Shown here piece by piece: positions 9,725 through 40,555 of a stretch of 64,000 nt of DNA. The position numbers were made by a program, and so were the translations under genes. Position 1 is the stretch's first letter. Each line of letters starts with the position of its first letter. The stretch is from NCBI GenBank assembly GCA_035645145.1, contig DASQNC010000016.1, positions 124,001-188,000 on the forward strand, given 5' to 3'. The notes under the pieces were generated by a model. It saw only the letters and a program-made list of their open reading frames with translations, made no database searches and had not been told where the DNA came from. This DNA comes from Azospirillaceae bacterium. Its GTDB lineage: Bacteria > Pseudomonadota > Alphaproteobacteria > Azospirillales > Azospirillaceae.

Positions 9725-11553
9725 GACAGCAGCATTGGCCGATCCTTGCGGTTGCCATCGCGTCCGAGACGGACGTGGTGACCGCCCGGCAAAGGACGCG
9801 GCGGGTCGCCGAATTCCTCGGCTTCGACATACAAAACCAGACCCGGATCGCCACCGCGGTCTCGGAGATCGTGCGCAATGCGATCGAGTATGCCGGCGGC
9901 GGCAGGATGGAATTCGCCCTGCGCGCCACCGAGCCGCTGCCGGCGCAACGGCAACGGCTGGTGGTGCGCATCGCCGACGACGGTCCGGGCATCGGCGACA
10001 TCGATGCCGTTCTGGAAGGCCGGCACCGATCGGAAACCGGCCTGGGCATTGGGATCCTGGGGGCCCGACGCCTGGTCGACGCCTTCACGATCGAGACCGG
10101 GCCGGGCGGCGGCACCGTGGTCGAGATCGCGAAGGATCTGCCGCACCGGCTGCCGCGCCTGACCCGCAAGGATCTCGACGCGCTGGTCGCCGAACTGGCG
10201 CGGGAGCAGGCCCTCGACCCCATGGGGGCATTGCGCGAGCAGAACCGCGAGCTGGCGCGCAGCCTCGACGAGCTCAGCACCCGCCAGGAGGAACTTGCCC
10301 GCCTGAACCGGGAACTGGAGGACACCAACCGCGGCGTTGTCGCGCTCTACGCCGAACTCGATGCGAAGGCCGAGCAGCTGCGCCAGGCCAGCGAACTCAA
10401 GTCGCGGTTCCTGTCCAACATGAGCCACGAGTTCCGGACCCCCCTCAACTCGATCCTGGCACTCTCGCGCCTGCTGCTGGACCGCACCGACGGGGGCCTG
10501 TCGGAGGAGCAGGAGCGGCAGGTCAGCTATATCCGGAAATCGGCCGAAAGCCTGACGGAGCTGGTCAACGATCTCCTGGACCTCGCCAAGGTCGAAGCCG
10601 GGAAAGTCGATATCCGGCCGACCACCTTCAGCATTGCCGAACTCTTCGGTGGCCTGCGCGGCGCACTCAGGCCGTTGAAGACGAACGAGGCGGTGGAACT
10701 CGTCTTTGTGGAACCACCGGCCGATATTCCCCGGCTCTCGACCGACGAGGCGAAGGTCGCGCAGGTGCTGCGCAACTTCGTCTCGAACGCGCTCAAGTTC
10801 ACGCCGACGGGCGAAGTGCGTGTCTCCGCCGTCCATGACGGCGAAACGGACCAGATCCTGTTCACCGTCGCCGACACGGGGATCGGCATCGCACCGCAGG
10901 ACCAGCCGCGCGTCTTCGAGGAATTCACCCAGATCGACAGTCCCCTTCAGAGGGCGGCGAAGGGGACGGGGTTGGGACTGTCCCTGTCACGCCGGCTGGC
11001 GGAACTGCTGGGAGGCGAGATCCGCCTTGAGAGCGAACCGGGCCGCGGCTCGATCTTCACCCTGGCGATCCCGCGGGTCTTCCGCGACACCCCGGACGAT
11101 GTCCCGTCGGCCGCCACAATGGTGGATGCGGGGCCGTCCCACCGCAATGCACGCGTACTCATCGTCGACGACGAGGAGGCGTTCCGGTACGTGCTGCGCC
11201 AAATGATAAACGGGGCAGGCGACGATGGACCGGCATACGACATCATCGAAGCGGTGGACGGGGTCGAAGCCCTGCAGTTGGCGCATGCCGAGCCCCGGCC
11301 CGACGCCATCCTGCTCGACCTCCAGATGCCGCGCCTCGACGGCTATGCTGTCCTGAACACGCTCGCATCCACGCCCCAGACCCGTGACATGCCTGTCATT
11401 GTGGCAACCTCGTCCATGGTGACCCCGGACGTTGCGGCGCATCTCACCCACGCCCGCGCCATCCTGGCCAAAAGCGCGCTCACCCGCGAGACGCTGGCGG
11501 CGGTGCTGCGTGATGCCGTCCCCATGAGCCGCATATCCGAGCGGCGGATCTGA
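9721..11553 (+). CDS. Hybrid histidine kinase with N-terminal RsbT-like ATPase domain
   Basis: A 610-residue soluble protein. Residues 1-138 are a third RsbT-like GHKL domain (AVSEIVRNAIEYAGGG, ADDGPGIGDIDAVL, ETGLGIGILGARRL). A coiled coil spans about 150-228. A HisKA domain has H236 in NMSHEFRTPLNS, followed by a HATPase_c with DTGIGI and GTGLGLSL. A C-terminal receiver has D533 in LLDLQMP. No membrane segments are seen. The ATG overlaps the previous stop (ATGA). It probably turns release from the stressosome into phosphotransfer, because RST modules in Gram-negative bacteria are often linked to two-component proteins; the mechanism is inferred. Confidence 0.87.
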   Translation: MRQQHWPILAVAIASETDVVTARQRTRRVAEFLGFDIQNQTRIATAVSEIVRNAIEYAGGGRMEFALRATEPLPAQRQRLVVRIADDGPGIGDIDAVLEGRHRSETGLGIGILGARRLVDAFTIETGPGGGTVVEIAKDLPHRLPRLTRKDLDALVAELAREQALDPMGALREQNRELARSLDELSTRQEELARLNRELEDTNRGVVALYAELDAKAEQLRQASELKSRFLSNMSHEFRTPLNSILALSRLLLDRTDGGLSEEQERQVSYIRKSAESLTELVNDLLDLAKVEAGKVDIRPTTFSIAELFGGLRGALRPLKTNEAVELVFVEPPADIPRLSTDEAKVAQVLRNFVSNALKFTPTGEVRVSAVHDGETDQILFTVADTGIGIAPQDQPRVFEEFTQIDSPLQRAAKGTGLGLSLSRRLAELLGGEIRLESEPGRGSIFTLAIPRVFRDTPDDVPSAATMVDAGPSHRNARVLIVDDEEAFRYVLRQMINGAGDDGPAYDIIEAVDGVEALQLAHAEPRPDAILLDLQMPRLDGYAVLNTLASTPQTRDMPVIVATSSMVTPDVAAHLTHARAILAKSALTRETLAAVLRDAVPMSRISERRI

Positions 11554-32701: not shown

Positions 32702-35065
32702 ATGGCCTGGAAGGGAACGGTGCCGGGATCCGGCTCAGCGCTCGCGGCACTTCGCTGCGCCGCCGCCGTTCTTGTTCTGATGACGGCCACATCCCCGCCG
32801 GCTTCGTCCGGCCCTCCCGGGAAGGGCGGCGTCGATGCCGTGCTGGACGCCGCGCGGGCGGCCGCACGGTCGGACCGCAATGCGCTGTCGGTCGAGCTTT
32901 TCCAACAGGCGCTGCGGGCCGCGCCGGAGCGCCGGGACGAGATCCTGCGCGAATACGCGGACCAGCTCGTCTATGCCGGGCGCCCCGCCGAAGCGATTCC
33001 GCTTTTCACCGAAGTCCTGGGCTCGCGCGGTCTCCCCGGCCAGGAACGCCGCCGCGCCGAGCGGGCCCTGGCGTTGGCCCTGCTGTGGAGCGGCCGGTTC
33101 GCGGAGGCCGTGCCGGCCTATGATCGCGTGCTCTCCGCATCCCCTGGCGATACGGACGCGGCGAAGGATCTGGTCCGCGCGCTGGCCGGGGCGGCGCGCG
33201 CCATGGCCCAGGTGGACCGGAATGCGGAGTCCGCCGCCCTGTTCGATCGGGCGATCCGGCTTGCGCCCCGGACCCGCGGCGAGCTGCTGCGGGAGTACGC
33301 GGACCAATTGAGCTTCACCCGGCGCGCGGCCGATGCGGTACCGCTCTACCGCGAGGTCCTGTCGTGGCCCGGTACCGACCCGGAGCAGGCCCGTGATGCC
33401 CGCCGCGGACTCGCGCTCGCCCTGTCCTGGAGCGGCCGGCCCGAAGAGGCGCAGGCGGAATACGAAGCGGTGATCCGCGACTTCCCCGCCGATTTGCCGG
33501 CGCGGCTGGGTCGCGCCCGCGTTCTCGCGGAGCGCGGGCTTCGCGCCGAGGCGCTGGCGGAATACGAAACCGCCCTCGGCCTCGATCCCCGCCACCCGGA
33601 AGCGCTCAAAGGGCGGGAGCGCGTGAGGGCCGCGGACGACCCTCCACCAACCGTCCCGGCACCGCGTCCTCCGGCATGGGCATCGACGACCCAGGCCGGG
33701 GCACCCGGGGTGTGGACATGGGTCACCACCACCGATGCCGGCCGGCTGCTCAGCCCGGGCCCTGCCGTATCCGTACGGACGCCGGACGGCAGCGGCGCCG
33801 CGCCCGTGCTGACGATCGACGATGCCGACCTGGGCCAGCGGATCGAAGGGTTCGGCGCGGCCCTCACGGAATCCTCGGCCTGGCTGATCCAGGGGCTCGC
33901 GCCTCCGCGGCGCGACGAGCTGATGACCCGGCTGTTCGATCCCGCGCGCGGGATCGGGCTCAGCTATCTGCGCCAGCCGATGGGATCCTCGGAGTTCGCC
34001 CTTTCCCACTACAGCTACGACGACCTGCCGCGGGGCGAGGCCGACCCGGCGCTCGCGCGCGTCTCCATCGACCGCGAGCGCCGGTACGTGATCCCGCTGC
34101 TGCGGCAGGCCCGCGCGCTCAATCCGCAATTGCGGCTGATGGCGACACCGTGGACGGCGCCGGGGTGGATGAAGACCAGCGGCTCGCTCCTGGGCGGACG
34201 CCTGCGTGCCGACGCCTATCCGGCCTATGCGCAATACTTCGTGCGCGTCCTGGAAGCCTTCTCGGCCGAAGGGCTGGCGATCGATGCCGTCACCGTCCAG
34301 AACGAGCCGACCACCCTGCCCGGCGACATGCCCGGCATGCTCATGGACACCGACGAGCAGGCGGCCTTCATCGGCGACCACCTCGGCCCGGCGCTGCGGG
34401 CCGGCGGCTTCAAGGTCCGGGTCCTCGCGTGGGACGACAACCTCGACCGGACCGATCCGGCGCGGACCCTGCTGAACGACCCCAAGGCCGGACGGCACCT
34501 CGCCGGGGCCGCCTTCCACGCCTACCGCGGCCGGCCCGAGGCGATTGCCCCGCTGGCCGCCGACCACCCGGACCGCATGTTCCTGATTTCCGAAGGCAGT
34601 TCCGGGACGTGGGAGACGGCTTTCGGGACGAACCTCCGCCACGACATCGGCCGCCTGATCATCCCGGCGCTGCGGAACGGGGCGGCCGGCGTGCTCAAGT
34701 GGAACATCGCCCTCGACCCGCGACATGGGCCGCGGACGGGCGGGTGCTCGCGATGCACCGGCCTGGTCACCATCGATCCCGTGACGGGCGGGCTCCAATT
34801 CAACCACGACTTCTTCGCACTCGGGCATTTCAGCAAGTTCATCGCCCCCGGCGCGCGCTTGGTCCGGTCGAAGACAGCCGGTGCGGCCACGCTCCAGACC
34901 GTCGCCGCCCTCAACCCGGACGGCAGCCTTGCCGTCGTGCTTTACAATCCCGAGCGCGCGGAGGCGGCGGTCGATATCCGCTGGCGCGGGCTGTCCGCCG
35001 GGGTGCCCGTGCCGGCGGAGGCCGTCATGACCCTGGTCTGGCGACGGGCCGCCGGCGCCACCTGA
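32702..35065 (+). CDS. Secreted TPR protein fused to GH30 glycoside hydrolase
   Basis: A 787-residue two-part protein. Residues 1-35 look like a signal peptide. Residues about 45-310 hold TPR-like repeats (LREYADQL, ALALLWSGRFAEAVPAYDRVL) very like those of the TPR-barrel protein at 37191-39458. Residues about 320-785 are a GH30 glucosylceramidase-like glycosidase with EGFGAALTESSAW, acid/base E535 (VQNEPTTL), nucleophile E631 (LISEGSSG) and a C-terminal beta domain. GH30 enzymes cut beta-linked sugars. It converges on the glycosyltransferase operon with a 22-base gap. A role in trimming the exported polysaccharide, like BcsZ in cellulose systems, is inferred. Confidence 0.85.
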   Translation: MAWKGTVPGSGSALAALRCAAAVLVLMTATSPPASSGPPGKGGVDAVLDAARAAARSDRNALSVELFQQALRAAPERRDEILREYADQLVYAGRPAEAIPLFTEVLGSRGLPGQERRRAERALALALLWSGRFAEAVPAYDRVLSASPGDTDAAKDLVRALAGAARAMAQVDRNAESAALFDRAIRLAPRTRGELLREYADQLSFTRRAADAVPLYREVLSWPGTDPEQARDARRGLALALSWSGRPEEAQAEYEAVIRDFPADLPARLGRARVLAERGLRAEALAEYETALGLDPRHPEALKGRERVRAADDPPPTVPAPRPPAWASTTQAGAPGVWTWVTTTDAGRLLSPGPAVSVRTPDGSGAAPVLTIDDADLGQRIEGFGAALTESSAWLIQGLAPPRRDELMTRLFDPARGIGLSYLRQPMGSSEFALSHYSYDDLPRGEADPALARVSIDRERRYVIPLLRQARALNPQLRLMATPWTAPGWMKTSGSLLGGRLRADAYPAYAQYFVRVLEAFSAEGLAIDAVTVQNEPTTLPGDMPGMLMDTDEQAAFIGDHLGPALRAGGFKVRVLAWDDNLDRTDPARTLLNDPKAGRHLAGAAFHAYRGRPEAIAPLAADHPDRMFLISEGSSGTWETAFGTNLRHDIGRLIIPALRNGAAGVLKWNIALDPRHGPRTGGCSRCTGLVTIDPVTGGLQFNHDFFALGHFSKFIAPGARLVRSKTAGAATLQTVAALNPDGSLAVVLYNPERAEAAVDIRWRGLSAGVPVPAEAVMTLVWRRAAGAT

Positions 35066-35087: not shown

Positions 35088-37187
35088 TCAGGACGCCGTT
35101 CCCCTTGGGGTCTCGGGCATTTCCATCGCCGTGTCCGCGGGCGGGGCCTCGTCCTTCTTGAGCGGTTCCGTATGGGCCCGGACGGTGCGCGGGGTCACGC
35201 GCCAGACCCGCTCCCGCATGGCCTCCTTCGCGTGCGACCAACGCGACAGCAGGTTCTTGAAGCCGGTGTAGAAAAACAACGAGACGGGCAGGTACCAGAC
35301 GAACCACCACCGCCGGCGCCGGATCGACTCGTCCGCCAGAATGTAGGTGAACAGGACGCTCGCCGGGCCGACGGTCAACGTATAGGCCGTGGTCGCGACG
35401 AAGATCGGGACCAGCCAGTCGATGTTCTCGAAGCCCCAGTCGTAGATCCAGAACACCAGAATGGGGAGCACCTGGATCGAGAACCACGGGAAGAGTTCCC
35501 GCCAGACCAGCAGGTGGAACATCCCCGCCTTCTGACGCAGGCTGAGGTGCCGCGAGGTGATGCCGGGGATGAACCATTTGACCGAGACCTGGAACCAGCC
35601 CTGGGCCCAGCGGAGCCGCTGGTTCATCAACTGCTTGAGCGTCGTCGGGGCGAGTTCGCGGGAGATCAGGTGGGGGTCGTTGGCGATCCGGTAGCCCGAG
35701 TTGATGACCCGCAGCGTGCTGTCGATGTCCTCGGTCAGCATGAAATGATGCATGCGGGTCAGCCGCAGCAGTTCGGTCCGCCAGTAGCCGTTGGAGCCCC
35801 CGAACAGCCCGAACCCGTGCAGCTTCGCCCGGCCGGGGTGGCTGGCGGCGTAGATGGATTCGAACTCGACGGCCACCATCCGCGCCACCCAGGAATCGTC
35901 GCCGTTGCGGATCAGGCAGTGGCCCTGGACGATGTCGTAGCCGTTCGACAGCCACCGCCATGCCCGTTCGAAGCTGCCGGGATCGGGCTTGTGGTCGGCG
36001 TCGAACACACCGACGAACGTGCCGGTGCATCGGCCCACCGCGGCATTCACGTTCTGGGCCTTGGACGTGCTGCCCATGACCCGTAGCGGCAGGAAGTCGG
36101 GGTGCCGCCGGGCCAGTTCCCGGAACTCCGCCTCGATCGCCATGTCCTCGGGCGTGTTGTAGGCCAGGATGATCTGGAGACGCGCCGGGTAGTCCTGGGC
36201 CAGGAACGACTCCAGGGTTTCCAGGATGGTCTCGGCCTCGTTGGGCAGGTAGGCCGCAATGATGGCGCTGGCGGACGGCCAGGGTTCGCCCGGCTCGTCG
36301 GGTGGTTGCAGCGGCCGGAGGGCCAGGAACGCCTCGATCCAGATGAAGGTCGCCGTCACCACCAGCATGAGGACGACCATCAGGTAGACCGTCCACGAGA
36401 CGTCCCACCCGATGGCGGCGAGCGCCCAGTACATCCAGAACGGGGCGAACAAGCCGACCACGAAGGTCGAGGCGATCTGGAACGGTGTCCGAACCTTGCC
36501 CATGAACCGGCGCCACACCGTATCCGTCGGCTGTGAGGTCCGTTCCATCCGGGGGTGGTAGCGGACCGGCAGAAGGTCCAGGTGGCTCCGGGCATAGTCG
36601 GTCGCCACCTGGACGCGCAGCCACAGCCGCTGGAAGCTGGGCCCTTGGTGGAACGCCGCGTGGCCGATGACCGGTGTGAACCGGAAGCACTCGCCCTCGA
36701 CCTGGAAAGGATGGCTGGCGATACGGCGGGACAGCAGCCGCAGCCGGCGGTAGACCCGGCGCCGGCCGGCTCCCGGCAGCAGGATCACGAACTTGCCGAC
36801 CCTGTGGTGCCGGCCCACGATCTCGCCCGGCAGGGCGTCGCGACCGATCAGTTCGCCCAGCTGCGCCATCACCTCGTGGTCGACCCGCTCGCTGTAGCGC
36901 CGGTACGCCATGAAGTCGGGAAACTCCTCGATCTCCAGGAAGGCCAGGGTCCCGGTTCCGGTCGGGCCGCGCAGCTCGCGGAAGATCGGCCGGGCCCGGG
37001 CGCGGAACTCCCGCGGGGACAGGAAGACCGCGCTGGGTCGTCCGCGGGGTGGCAGCAGACGCCGCACCAGCGATGGCGGGCGAGGCGGGCGCGCCATGGC
37101 CTCCCGCGGCGATGCGACCACCGGTCGGGTTTCACCCAACCGGAATTCCTGCAGGAGGTCGGCCACCCGCGGATCGTCCTGGGGCAT
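35088..37187 (-). CDS. Processive family-2 glycosyltransferase with degenerate GGDEF domain
   Basis: A 699-residue membrane synthase. Residues about 78-185 resemble a GGDEF domain (FLEIEEFPDFM, then VILLPGAGRRRVYRRLRLL), but the GGDEF signature is replaced by RVGKF (129-133), so it cannot make c-di-GMP. Two helices follow (about 242-288). The GT2 domain has FDADHKPD (396), TED at 485 and QRLRW (523-527), the marks of a processive beta-glycan synthase. About four C-terminal helices follow. No PilZ domain is seen. It starts three bases after the TPR-barrel gene. It should polymerise and extrude an exopolysaccharide; c-di-GMP sensing by the N-terminal domain is a hypothesis. Confidence 0.85.
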   Translation of the reverse strand: MPQDDPRVADLLQEFRLGETRPVVASPREAMARPPRPPSLVRRLLPPRGRPSAVFLSPREFRARARPIFRELRGPTGTGTLAFLEIEEFPDFMAYRRYSERVDHEVMAQLGELIGRDALPGEIVGRHHRVGKFVILLPGAGRRRVYRRLRLLSRRIASHPFQVEGECFRFTPVIGHAAFHQGPSFQRLWLRVQVATDYARSHLDLLPVRYHPRMERTSQPTDTVWRRFMGKVRTPFQIASTFVVGLFAPFWMYWALAAIGWDVSWTVYLMVVLMLVVTATFIWIEAFLALRPLQPPDEPGEPWPSASAIIAAYLPNEAETILETLESFLAQDYPARLQIILAYNTPEDMAIEAEFRELARRHPDFLPLRVMGSTSKAQNVNAAVGRCTGTFVGVFDADHKPDPGSFERAWRWLSNGYDIVQGHCLIRNGDDSWVARMVAVEFESIYAASHPGRAKLHGFGLFGGSNGYWRTELLRLTRMHHFMLTEDIDSTLRVINSGYRIANDPHLISRELAPTTLKQLMNQRLRWAQGWFQVSVKWFIPGITSRHLSLRQKAGMFHLLVWRELFPWFSIQVLPILVFWIYDWGFENIDWLVPIFVATTAYTLTVGPASVLFTYILADESIRRRRWWFVWYLPVSLFFYTGFKNLLSRWSHAKEAMRERVWRVTPRTVRAHTEPLKKDEAPPADTAMEMPETPRGTAS

Positions 37188-37190
37188 CGC

Positions 37191-39458
37191 CTACCACCTG
37201 TACCGCAGCGTGAGGCCGATGGTCGTCCGCGTGAACCCGCCACCTTGGGGATCTTCGAGCGGGCTGAGGCGGGCCAATCGGACCTTGCCCTCCCATTGGT
37301 CGGAGAAGACATAGGTCAGCCCGGCCGAGGCCCGCCAGACCACCTGGAACCCGCCGGGCTCCTGCCACTCCCCGCCGATACCGCCTTCGGCCTCGTACCA
37401 GAGCCGGTTGGCGAACACTCCGTCCCAGATCTTCGCCGTCGCCAGAAGGACGCGGGCATCCCTGGGATTCCAGTAGCCATTGTCGAGGACCTCCTCGAAC
37501 CGGAACGCGGTCGCCTCCACGCCCAGCACGATGTTGGGTTCCCGCAGGACCAGCTGCTGGAGGTGGGCCTGCCCCCACACGCGGCGATTGCCGTCCGTGT
37601 ACCAGCCGTAGTCGCCGCGCAGGGCCAGGGTGGTGGACGGCGTGGGACGGACATCCACCGAGAGCGAGGCGTACGTCGCGGTGATCCGCTCGACCAGCGA
37701 TTCGATGTTGTCGAAGAACACGCGGCGGCTGCCGACATAGACGCTGGCGAAGTCCGTGGGCTCGAACGTCGCATAGGCATCGTAGGTCGGGACCACGGCC
37801 TCCATGCCGCCGTGCAGGATGTTCAGGTCGGCCCGCGCGTCGATCCGCGCCCCATCGCCGAACCGGTGGCCCAGCCGGAACCCCGGCGACTGGACGCGCA
37901 CGGGGGGATCGGGGGCGTCCGGCAGGAACTGGGCGGACCGGAATGTGATGCCGACCTTCGTGAGGCCGTCGTTCAGGGTGTGGACATGCTCCACCGTCTG
38001 GGTGGCGATGACCAGCCCGTTGGATTGGGTCGAGACCCAGGCATCGACCTCGGTCCGGGGCCGCATCTCGCGGCGGATGTCGGCCATCAGTGCCTCCGCC
38101 GTCCTGTCGTCGGGGTTTTCGGCCAAAAGACCCTCGGCGATGGTCCGGGCCCGGTCGGACCGGCCCATCCAGAACAGGGTTTGGGCGAGCAGCCGGCGGG
38201 CCTCGGGGTCCTCGGGCCGCTCCTCCAGAAGGCCGCGGAAATCCCGCACCGCCCCCCGGTGGCGTCCCCGCCAGCTCCGCACCTGGGCCAAGCCCCGCCA
38301 AGCCTCGGCATTGTCGGGATCCTGCTCCAGGACCTTGCGGAACGCGTCCTCGGCCGTCCGAAGATCGCCCTGCCATGCCATGACACGGGCGGACCCGATC
38401 CGCGCGTCCATGTCGTCGGGGTTTTCGGCCAGAAGAGTTTCGTAGATCCGGAGCGCCTCGGCGTGCCGGTCGCTCCACGACAGGGCCAGGGCCAGCCCCA
38501 GGCGCAGGCCCCGCCGCTCCTTCGGGTCCAGGTTCTCCCGTGCCAGCGCCTCGTGGAACAGCGGGATGGCCTCGGTCTTGCCGCCGGCCCACAGAAGCTG
38601 CTCGGCGTACCGGCCGAGGTGCTTTTCGCGCAACGAGGGGTCGGCCGCGAACGCCCGCCGGTAGGTGTCCGCCGCGGCGGCGTTGTCGTTTTCCCAACCC
38701 AGCGCCTGGGCCTTGCCGACCAGCAGCTCCCCGTCCCGGGGCTGTTCGGCCAGCAGCCGGTCGTATTGGGCGATGGCTTCCCGGTGCCGCCCGGACCAAG
38801 CCAACGCCAGCGCAAGGTTCCGGCCGGCACGCTGGCGGTCCTCGGCGGACGCGGCGCCGGAGGACAGGACTTCCCGGTACCGGGCGATGGCCTCACTCTT
38901 GCCACCCGCCCACAGAAGTTGGTCGGCGAGCTTGGCAAGGTGCTTTCCCCGCACGGCGGGGTCGATCTGGAACGCTCGGCTGTAGGTTTCCGCGGCCTCG
39001 GCGTTCCGGTTGGACCAGCCGAGCGCCTCGGCCTTGCCGATCAGGAGGCCGGCGTCCCGCGGATGCCTGGCGAGAAGCGCGTCGTAGCGGCGGACCGCCT
39101 CCGCGTGCTGGCCGGCCCACGCATAGGCCAGGGCCAAATTCCGCTCGGCCCGGTCCCGGTCCTCCGCCGGGATCAGGCGGAAGGACAGGTACTCGTGGTA
39201 GAGCGGGATCGCATCGCGGCTGCCGCCACTGTAGAGCACTTGGTCGGCGTATTCGCGGAGCAGCCGCCGGCGCAGGGTCGGCCGCTCCGCAAGCGCTGCC
39301 TCGAACAGCTGGCGGGCCCGGTGGTTGTCATCCTGAACGGCGGCTTCGCGGGCTTGGTCGACAAGGTCGCGCGTCGTTGGCTCGTCCTGGGCCGAGGCGG
39401 CGCCCATTGTCGAAAAAAGGAAGGCGATTCCAGCCAGCGCACCCTTGCGGAGCCACAC
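37191..39458 (-). CDS. TPR protein with C-terminal outer-membrane barrel
   Basis: A 755-residue exported protein. A signal peptide ends near residue 23 (GAASAQ). About residues 30-490 hold TPR-like repeats in three near-identical blocks (LLWAGGKSEAIARYREVL, LALALAWSGRHREAIAQYD). About 500-755 is beta-rich with alternating residues and ends in LRYRW; a terminal aromatic is typical of outer-membrane barrels. The layout is that of BcsC/AlgK-AlgE/PgaA export proteins: periplasmic TPR scaffold plus porin. It is the first gene of a two-gene operon with the synthase, so it should carry the polymer across the outer membrane. Confidence 0.85.
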   Translation of the reverse strand: MWLRKGALAGIAFLFSTMGAASAQDEPTTRDLVDQAREAAVQDDNHRARQLFEAALAERPTLRRRLLREYADQVLYSGGSRDAIPLYHEYLSFRLIPAEDRDRAERNLALAYAWAGQHAEAVRRYDALLARHPRDAGLLIGKAEALGWSNRNAEAAETYSRAFQIDPAVRGKHLAKLADQLLWAGGKSEAIARYREVLSSGAASAEDRQRAGRNLALALAWSGRHREAIAQYDRLLAEQPRDGELLVGKAQALGWENDNAAAADTYRRAFAADPSLREKHLGRYAEQLLWAGGKTEAIPLFHEALARENLDPKERRGLRLGLALALSWSDRHAEALRIYETLLAENPDDMDARIGSARVMAWQGDLRTAEDAFRKVLEQDPDNAEAWRGLAQVRSWRGRHRGAVRDFRGLLEERPEDPEARRLLAQTLFWMGRSDRARTIAEGLLAENPDDRTAEALMADIRREMRPRTEVDAWVSTQSNGLVIATQTVEHVHTLNDGLTKVGITFRSAQFLPDAPDPPVRVQSPGFRLGHRFGDGARIDARADLNILHGGMEAVVPTYDAYATFEPTDFASVYVGSRRVFFDNIESLVERITATYASLSVDVRPTPSTTLALRGDYGWYTDGNRRVWGQAHLQQLVLREPNIVLGVEATAFRFEEVLDNGYWNPRDARVLLATAKIWDGVFANRLWYEAEGGIGGEWQEPGGFQVVWRASAGLTYVFSDQWEGKVRLARLSPLEDPQGGGFTRTTIGLTLRYRW

Positions 39459-40465: not shown

Positions 40466-40555
40466 TGGCGGAGGGGATGGGATTCGAACCCACGATACCG
40501 TTTCCGGTATACCCGCTTTCCAGGCGAGCGCCTTCAACCACTCGGCCACCCCTCC
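40466..40555 (-). tRNA. tRNA-Ser (GGA anticodon)
   Basis: A 90-base class II tRNA including an encoded CCA end. Acceptor arms GGAGGGG/CCCCTCC with discriminator G, D-arm GGCCGAGTGGTTGAAGGC, anticodon loop CTGGAAA (anticodon GGA), a long variable arm (TACCGGAAACGGTA stem) and T-arm GGGTTCGAATCCC are all visible. It reads UCC and UCU serine codons. Confidence 0.97.

Follow-up and report, generated by a model that had tools for sequence, protein, structure and literature searches.

The gene on the minus strand at 35088..37187 of the window, the 64,000-nucleotide stretch of an Azospirillaceae contig analysed here, raises the question of what a degenerate GGDEF domain is doing at the front of a polysaccharide synthase. 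The GGDEF fold is normally the maker of the signal molecule c-di-GMP, and bacterial polysaccharide synthases are switched by c-di-GMP through PilZ domains, MshEN domains or partner proteins. The first-pass annotation had proposed that the product of this gene carries its c-di-GMP receptor as a covalent part of the synthase. The open reading frame was found where that annotation had placed it (35088-37187, minus strand, 699 amino acids).

The synthase and its neighbours

The gene probably specifies an inner-membrane processive GT2 polysaccharide synthase, its anatomy being read from sequence and structure prediction and its activity deduced from that anatomy. The GT2 catalytic domain (PF13641, 1.8e-28) covers residues 304-530 (35598..36278, minus strand) and includes the motifs FDADH (395-399), TED (485-487) and QRLRW (523-527). 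Ahead of it, hydropathy indicates two transmembrane helices at residues ~236-289 (36321..36482, minus strand), which the AlphaFold2 model of the full-length protein (pLDDT 87.3, pTM 0.85) places at 224-258 and 264-289. All the marks of a processive GT2 polysaccharide synthase are present: the GT2 fold, the DxD, TED and QxxRW motifs and flanking transmembrane helices. Among solved structures the full-length model aligned with PcManGT (Z 30.2), the chlorovirus hyaluronan synthase (Z 26.0) and BcsA of E. coli (Z 25.6) and Rhodobacter (Z 23.9). The window protein scored below the curated cut-offs for CelA (49.9 against 699 bits) and PgaC (77.2 against 422 bits). Near its C-terminus, the family alignment and a structural alignment to BcsA (4p00) revealed a gating-loop-like motif, WRVTPR, at residues 662-667 (35187..35204, minus strand). 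Across the family, the W, T and R of this motif do not vary, except in one or two rows that are gapped or truncated. Judging from the end of the 4p00 alignment (model residue 671 against chain residue 512), it would occupy the place of the FxVTxK gating loop of BcsA.

Three bases separate the synthase ATG from the stop codon of the gene directly upstream (37191..39458, minus strand). The latter encodes a TPR protein with an outer-membrane barrel, a putative export porin of the PgaA/BcsC kind, recognized by TPR families and a match to the PgaA model (5e-26, below cut-off). Its homologues occur at 14 loci of Gram-negative relatives (Pseudomonadota and Acidobacteriota). Tail-to-tail with the synthase lies a gene for a TPR protein with a beta-1,6-glucanase-like GH30 glycoside hydrolase domain (32702..35065, plus strand; PF02055, 3.2e-48). 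This neighbour belongs to the GH30 fold family by PF02055, its nearest PDB entry being 5ngk (1.5e-65). It carries NEP 534, presumably the usual GH30 acid, and SEG 630, which we take to be a candidate nucleophile. GH30 genes are also found near seven actinobacterial synthase loci. The NCBIfam endo-1,6-beta-glucanase model was matched with E-values of about 1.5e-85 to 5e-85, at 287.7 bits against a curated cut-off of 700; since the match falls below that cut-off, a beta-1,6-linked glucan is named as the product as a best guess and with low confidence. The TPRs of the GH30 enzyme (32702-35065) are ~41% identical to those of the porin (37191-39458), as if the hydrolase and the export porin used the same periplasmic scaffold. 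A tRNA-Ser (gga) gene at 40466-40555 of the window, ~1 kb past the porin end of the cluster, is a possible insertion site.

The N-terminal domain and its relatives

Searched alone, the N-terminal domain matched no Pfam or family model, and searching the genome of the organism with PF00990 did not return the window protein. With residues 1-262 and with the whole protein (tblastn/phmmer), C-terminal domains of other proteins were matched, with E-values down to 2.7e-8 and 7e-9, these hits being themselves without annotation. The identification as a degenerate GGDEF domain, residues 53-215 approximately (36543..37031, minus strand), came from a structural model, a family profile and the detection of PF00990 in relatives. 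AlphaFold2 modelled residues 45-216 with a pLDDT of 91.6 and a pTM of 0.87. The best solved match of this model is the GGDEF domain of DosC (Z 21.7, 2.4 A over 162 residues; Foldseek 4.9e-10), and the domain has the alpha/beta fold of the GGDEF superfamily. A profile built from 53 family sequences matched the GGDEF domain of FimX (3hva) at 3.9e-22, as well as PleD, WspR, DosC and other cyclases. PF00990 was detected at E<=0.1 in 46 of the 53 members (best 6.9e-19), and several full-length family proteins exceeded its cut-off. The fold prediction suggested in the first-pass annotation has therefore given a GGDEF-like structure, which together with PF13641 bears out the fusion of a degenerate GGDEF domain to a GT2 synthase. 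The boundaries of 78-185 first assigned to the fold were too narrow.

A scan of genome contigs with the single window protein returned no relatives. A plasmid search by tblastn turned up a protein of Streptomyces sp. BHT-5-2 with 47% identity; this match gave an alignment, and the alignment-based scan of 84,980 species located at least 188 encoding loci, the best 80 of which were kept for comparison. They are distributed over the Actinomycetota, Chloroflexota, Pseudomonadota, Acidobacteriota and Thermomicrobiota; viral contigs contained no relatives. Membership goes with ~42-53% identity over the aligned chain, and the window protein has its defining feature, an inactive GGDEF domain N-terminal to this GT2.

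By sequence, the usual family plan is a receiver (REC) domain, an inactive GGDEF domain, two transmembrane helices, a BcsA-like GT2, further transmembrane helices and the motif WxVTPR. Pfam recognized REC, GGDEF and GT2 together in L116, L117, L118, L124 and L125, and GGDEF with GT2 in L161. A GGDEF-fold domain is present in every relative examined, in several phyla. On these domain assignments the GGDEF-GT2 fusion is the standard architecture of the family over several phyla and no one-off. Most members have the N-terminal REC. Many rows preserve its DD/D/K motifs; in Streptomyces, Burkholderiales and Acidimicrobiia the domain is worn. At L119, L123 and L124 a histidine kinase gene adjoins that of the synthase. 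REC is absent from the window protein and from L137, L158, L161, L163, L165, L173, L191 and L193; in the window a stop codon lies just upstream and nothing aligns to REC. In a quick tree the window protein clusters, with modest support (81-85), with the REC-less L137 and L158 (two Sphingomonas loci) and L165 (Acidobacteriota), a group of relatives having neither REC nor RxxD.

Among 82 genomes of the organism's own family only the GT2 part found similarity (23-31%), so that horizontal acquisition of the synthase gene is likely. A phylum sample of 398 genomes contained no other full-length close relative, and an empty-site comparison with the sister genome G052 yielded only short scattered matches.

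Some loci depart from the common plan. A Paracoccaceae MAG (L124:7422-10697 + 10704-11450) has two REC and two GGDEF-like regions before one GT2 in a protein of 1092 amino acids, and the gene that directly follows it encodes a histidine kinase. In a Sphingomonas palustris MAG (L137:7917-12728) the degenerate GGDEF-GT2 protein runs into a long TPR region within one open reading frame of 1603 amino acids, and a barrel protein is encoded next; synthase and the TPR part of the exporter are apparently fused. At L127:3392-7156, a gene for a GAF-GGDEF-EAL-REC protein lies directly upstream of a synthase relative with RxxD.

Catalytic signature, inhibitory site and constraint

Alignment places RVGKF, residues 129-133 (36789..36803, minus strand), at the position of the GG(D/E)EF signature, as the first-pass annotation had read it, with one extra residue (H) immediately ahead. 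None of the 80 family members examined has a canonical GG(D/E)EF signature and the column of the first metal-binding Asp holds mostly G, R or A; the GGDEF domain is therefore regarded as inactive. Both marks of an active diguanylate cyclase, the signature and the metal-binding Asp, are missing from the window protein. Some GGDEF-EAL proteins sense GTP; this role was discounted for the window domain, which has lost its signature and metal positions.

The inhibitory (I) site was defined as RxxD, five residues ahead of the signature. By column alignment, the window protein has LPGE at residues 119-122 (36822..36833, minus strand) where RxxD is expected; in L137 and L158, its closest grouped relatives, this segment is deleted. 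The search for a retained RxxD, proposed with the original annotation, thus found the site lost. What stands of the covalent receptor is the fusion of an inactive GGDEF domain to GT2; reception of the RxxD type is, on the residues present, unsupported for the window protein. Binding of c-di-GMP by a non-RxxD route is possible.

RxxD stands at the exact I-site position in 16 of 82 rows (L119, 122, 124, 125, 127, 128, 131, 132, 136, 150, 152, 155, 157, 159, 181 and 188). R..D at these columns has a frequency, weighted by cluster, of 0.28, making it the top i,i+3 pair of the domain, and the acidic residue is D or E in 94%. Ordinary GGDEF domains likewise have a conserved acid ahead of the signature, and the acid here may be structural. 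The quick tree requires at least eight state changes of RxxD; repeated loss of a site present in the ancestor would account for this, though the count is no proof of it. Going by the motif, reception of c-di-GMP by the relatives bearing RxxD is plausible.

The domain diverges fast. Its identity to relatives is 18-31% versus 66-71% for GT2, and its dN commonly exceeds that of GT2 several times over. Even the close pairs measured have dN less than dS, and family-specific residues are ~95% conserved: E88 in 76/80 members, D204 in 77/80, L205 in 78/80 and P207 in 78/80. On the strength of these two observations we regard the domain as held under constraint.

Role of the domain and relation to known systems

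The explanation we prefer, and hold to be moderately probable, is that the inactive GGDEF domain is kept in the cytosol as a regulatory or assembly module, attached to a processive synthase working beside the TPR/porin and the GH30 enzyme, and that it is neither an RxxD receptor nor a phospho-receiver; a beta-1,6-glucan product is part of this reading at low confidence. The fusion would have begun with a REC-GGDEF cyclase attached to a synthase; decay of the cyclase would then have left a domain for regulatory coupling, with E88 and D204-L205-x-P207 kept in place of the catalytic residues. In the window protein, REC, active-site signature and RxxD would all have gone, the domain packing on GT2. 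The module would act on the GT2 gate, driven in relatives by REC and perhaps c-di-GMP; in the window protein both of these known inputs would be absent. Nucleotide sugar would be converted to polymer at the cytosolic side and pass through the transmembrane channel; the TPR/porin would carry the polymer onward and the TPR-GH30 enzyme would trim it.

The fast divergence of the domain relative to GT2 speaks against this explanation, and a domain evolving in this way may serve the clade of the window protein as hardly more than a spacer. Taken to its end, this makes it an evolutionary leftover, folded and without a regulatory role in the clade once REC and the binding of nucleotide had gone, as would suit the absence of every known input or ligand motif, the several-fold faster divergence and the failure of PF00990 to detect it. 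We give this reading little credence: the excess of dS over dN in the close pairs measured, the conserved family-specific residues and the retention of the domain in every relative examined across several phyla speak against it. Just as unlikely, in our estimate, is the proposal with which the analysis began, a c-di-GMP receptor forming one chain with the synthase; on this reading rising c-di-GMP would turn polymerisation on. The organism probably makes c-di-GMP, as its genome has five recognisable GGDEF matches, and the RxxD rows, the weighted R..D pair and the conserved acid are in keeping with reception, as are the precedents of PelD, PssE and BcsE (PMC8461298, PMC4125290). Against it stand the LPGE of the window protein, the deletion in its nearest grouped relatives and the lack of the arginine from most of the family, the conserved acid being perhaps structural. 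Looking beyond the window protein to the whole family, it is conceivable, if rather doubtful, that we have here a new class of synthase in which one chain integrates phosphorylation by histidine kinases (through REC) and c-di-GMP (through RxxD), both acting on the GT2 gating loop, the window protein being a derived form without either input.

Sugar-polymer synthesis may in this family be wired directly to cell signalling. A widespread family of synthases bearing both receiver and inactive GGDEF domains would provide a direct route from two-component systems to matrix production, one that would extend to Streptomyces and the Chloroflexota, where matrix control is in our judgement poorly understood. 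The proteins that keep REC and RxxD, only one of the two, or neither form a natural series on which the reuse of a dead GGDEF domain could be tested.

Covalent receptor-synthase fusions are known, with PilZ in BcsA and the tail of BgsA (PMC5567048). Like BcsA, the window protein is a processive GT2 with transmembrane helices and the DxD, TED and QxxRW motifs. Both have a signal domain attached on the cytosolic side and, in many cases, a TPR/porin that accompanies them, and the gating-loop-like WxVTPR would correspond in place to FxVTxK. The window protein differs in that BcsA has a C-terminal PilZ domain, while here there is no PilZ, the GGDEF fold is N-terminal and most relatives have REC; identity in the structural match is only 20%. 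Inactive GGDEF receptors beside synthases are also known (PMC8461298, PMC4125290). PelD, Listeria PssE and BcsE share with this family an inactive GGDEF fold tied to exopolysaccharide synthesis, and RxxD is kept in some relatives here. Those receptors are, in the described cases (Listeria PssE, PMC4125290; PelD and BcsE, PMC8461298), separate from the synthase, as the first-pass annotation had stated for Listeria and Bacillus systems, and the window protein lacks RxxD. No published fusion of GGDEF with GT2 came to light in searches of PubMed Central, which does not cover subscription papers.

In the methanogen REC-GT2 response regulators (MTH_548; PMC5847659) a receiver is likewise joined to a BcsA-like PF13641 glycosyltransferase; these are archaeal and have no GGDEF domain in between, and the window protein is itself without REC. 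The PgaC/PgaA system for PNAG also combines a GT2 synthase, a TPR/porin exporter and a linked hydrolase, but the PgaC score is low (77 versus 422 bits), no PgaD was seen and GH30 takes the place of PgaB. Synthases of the MshEN-GT2 and NfrB types carry a signal domain covalently on GT2 as here, with a different receptor fold; MshEN-glycosyltransferase fusions are cited in PMC12943098. In the phylum search, two GT2 proteins were scanned with Pfam: the similarly sized L092 (~650 amino acids) had no match in its N-terminus, and L100 had an N-terminal MshEN domain (PF05157, 7.3e-9).
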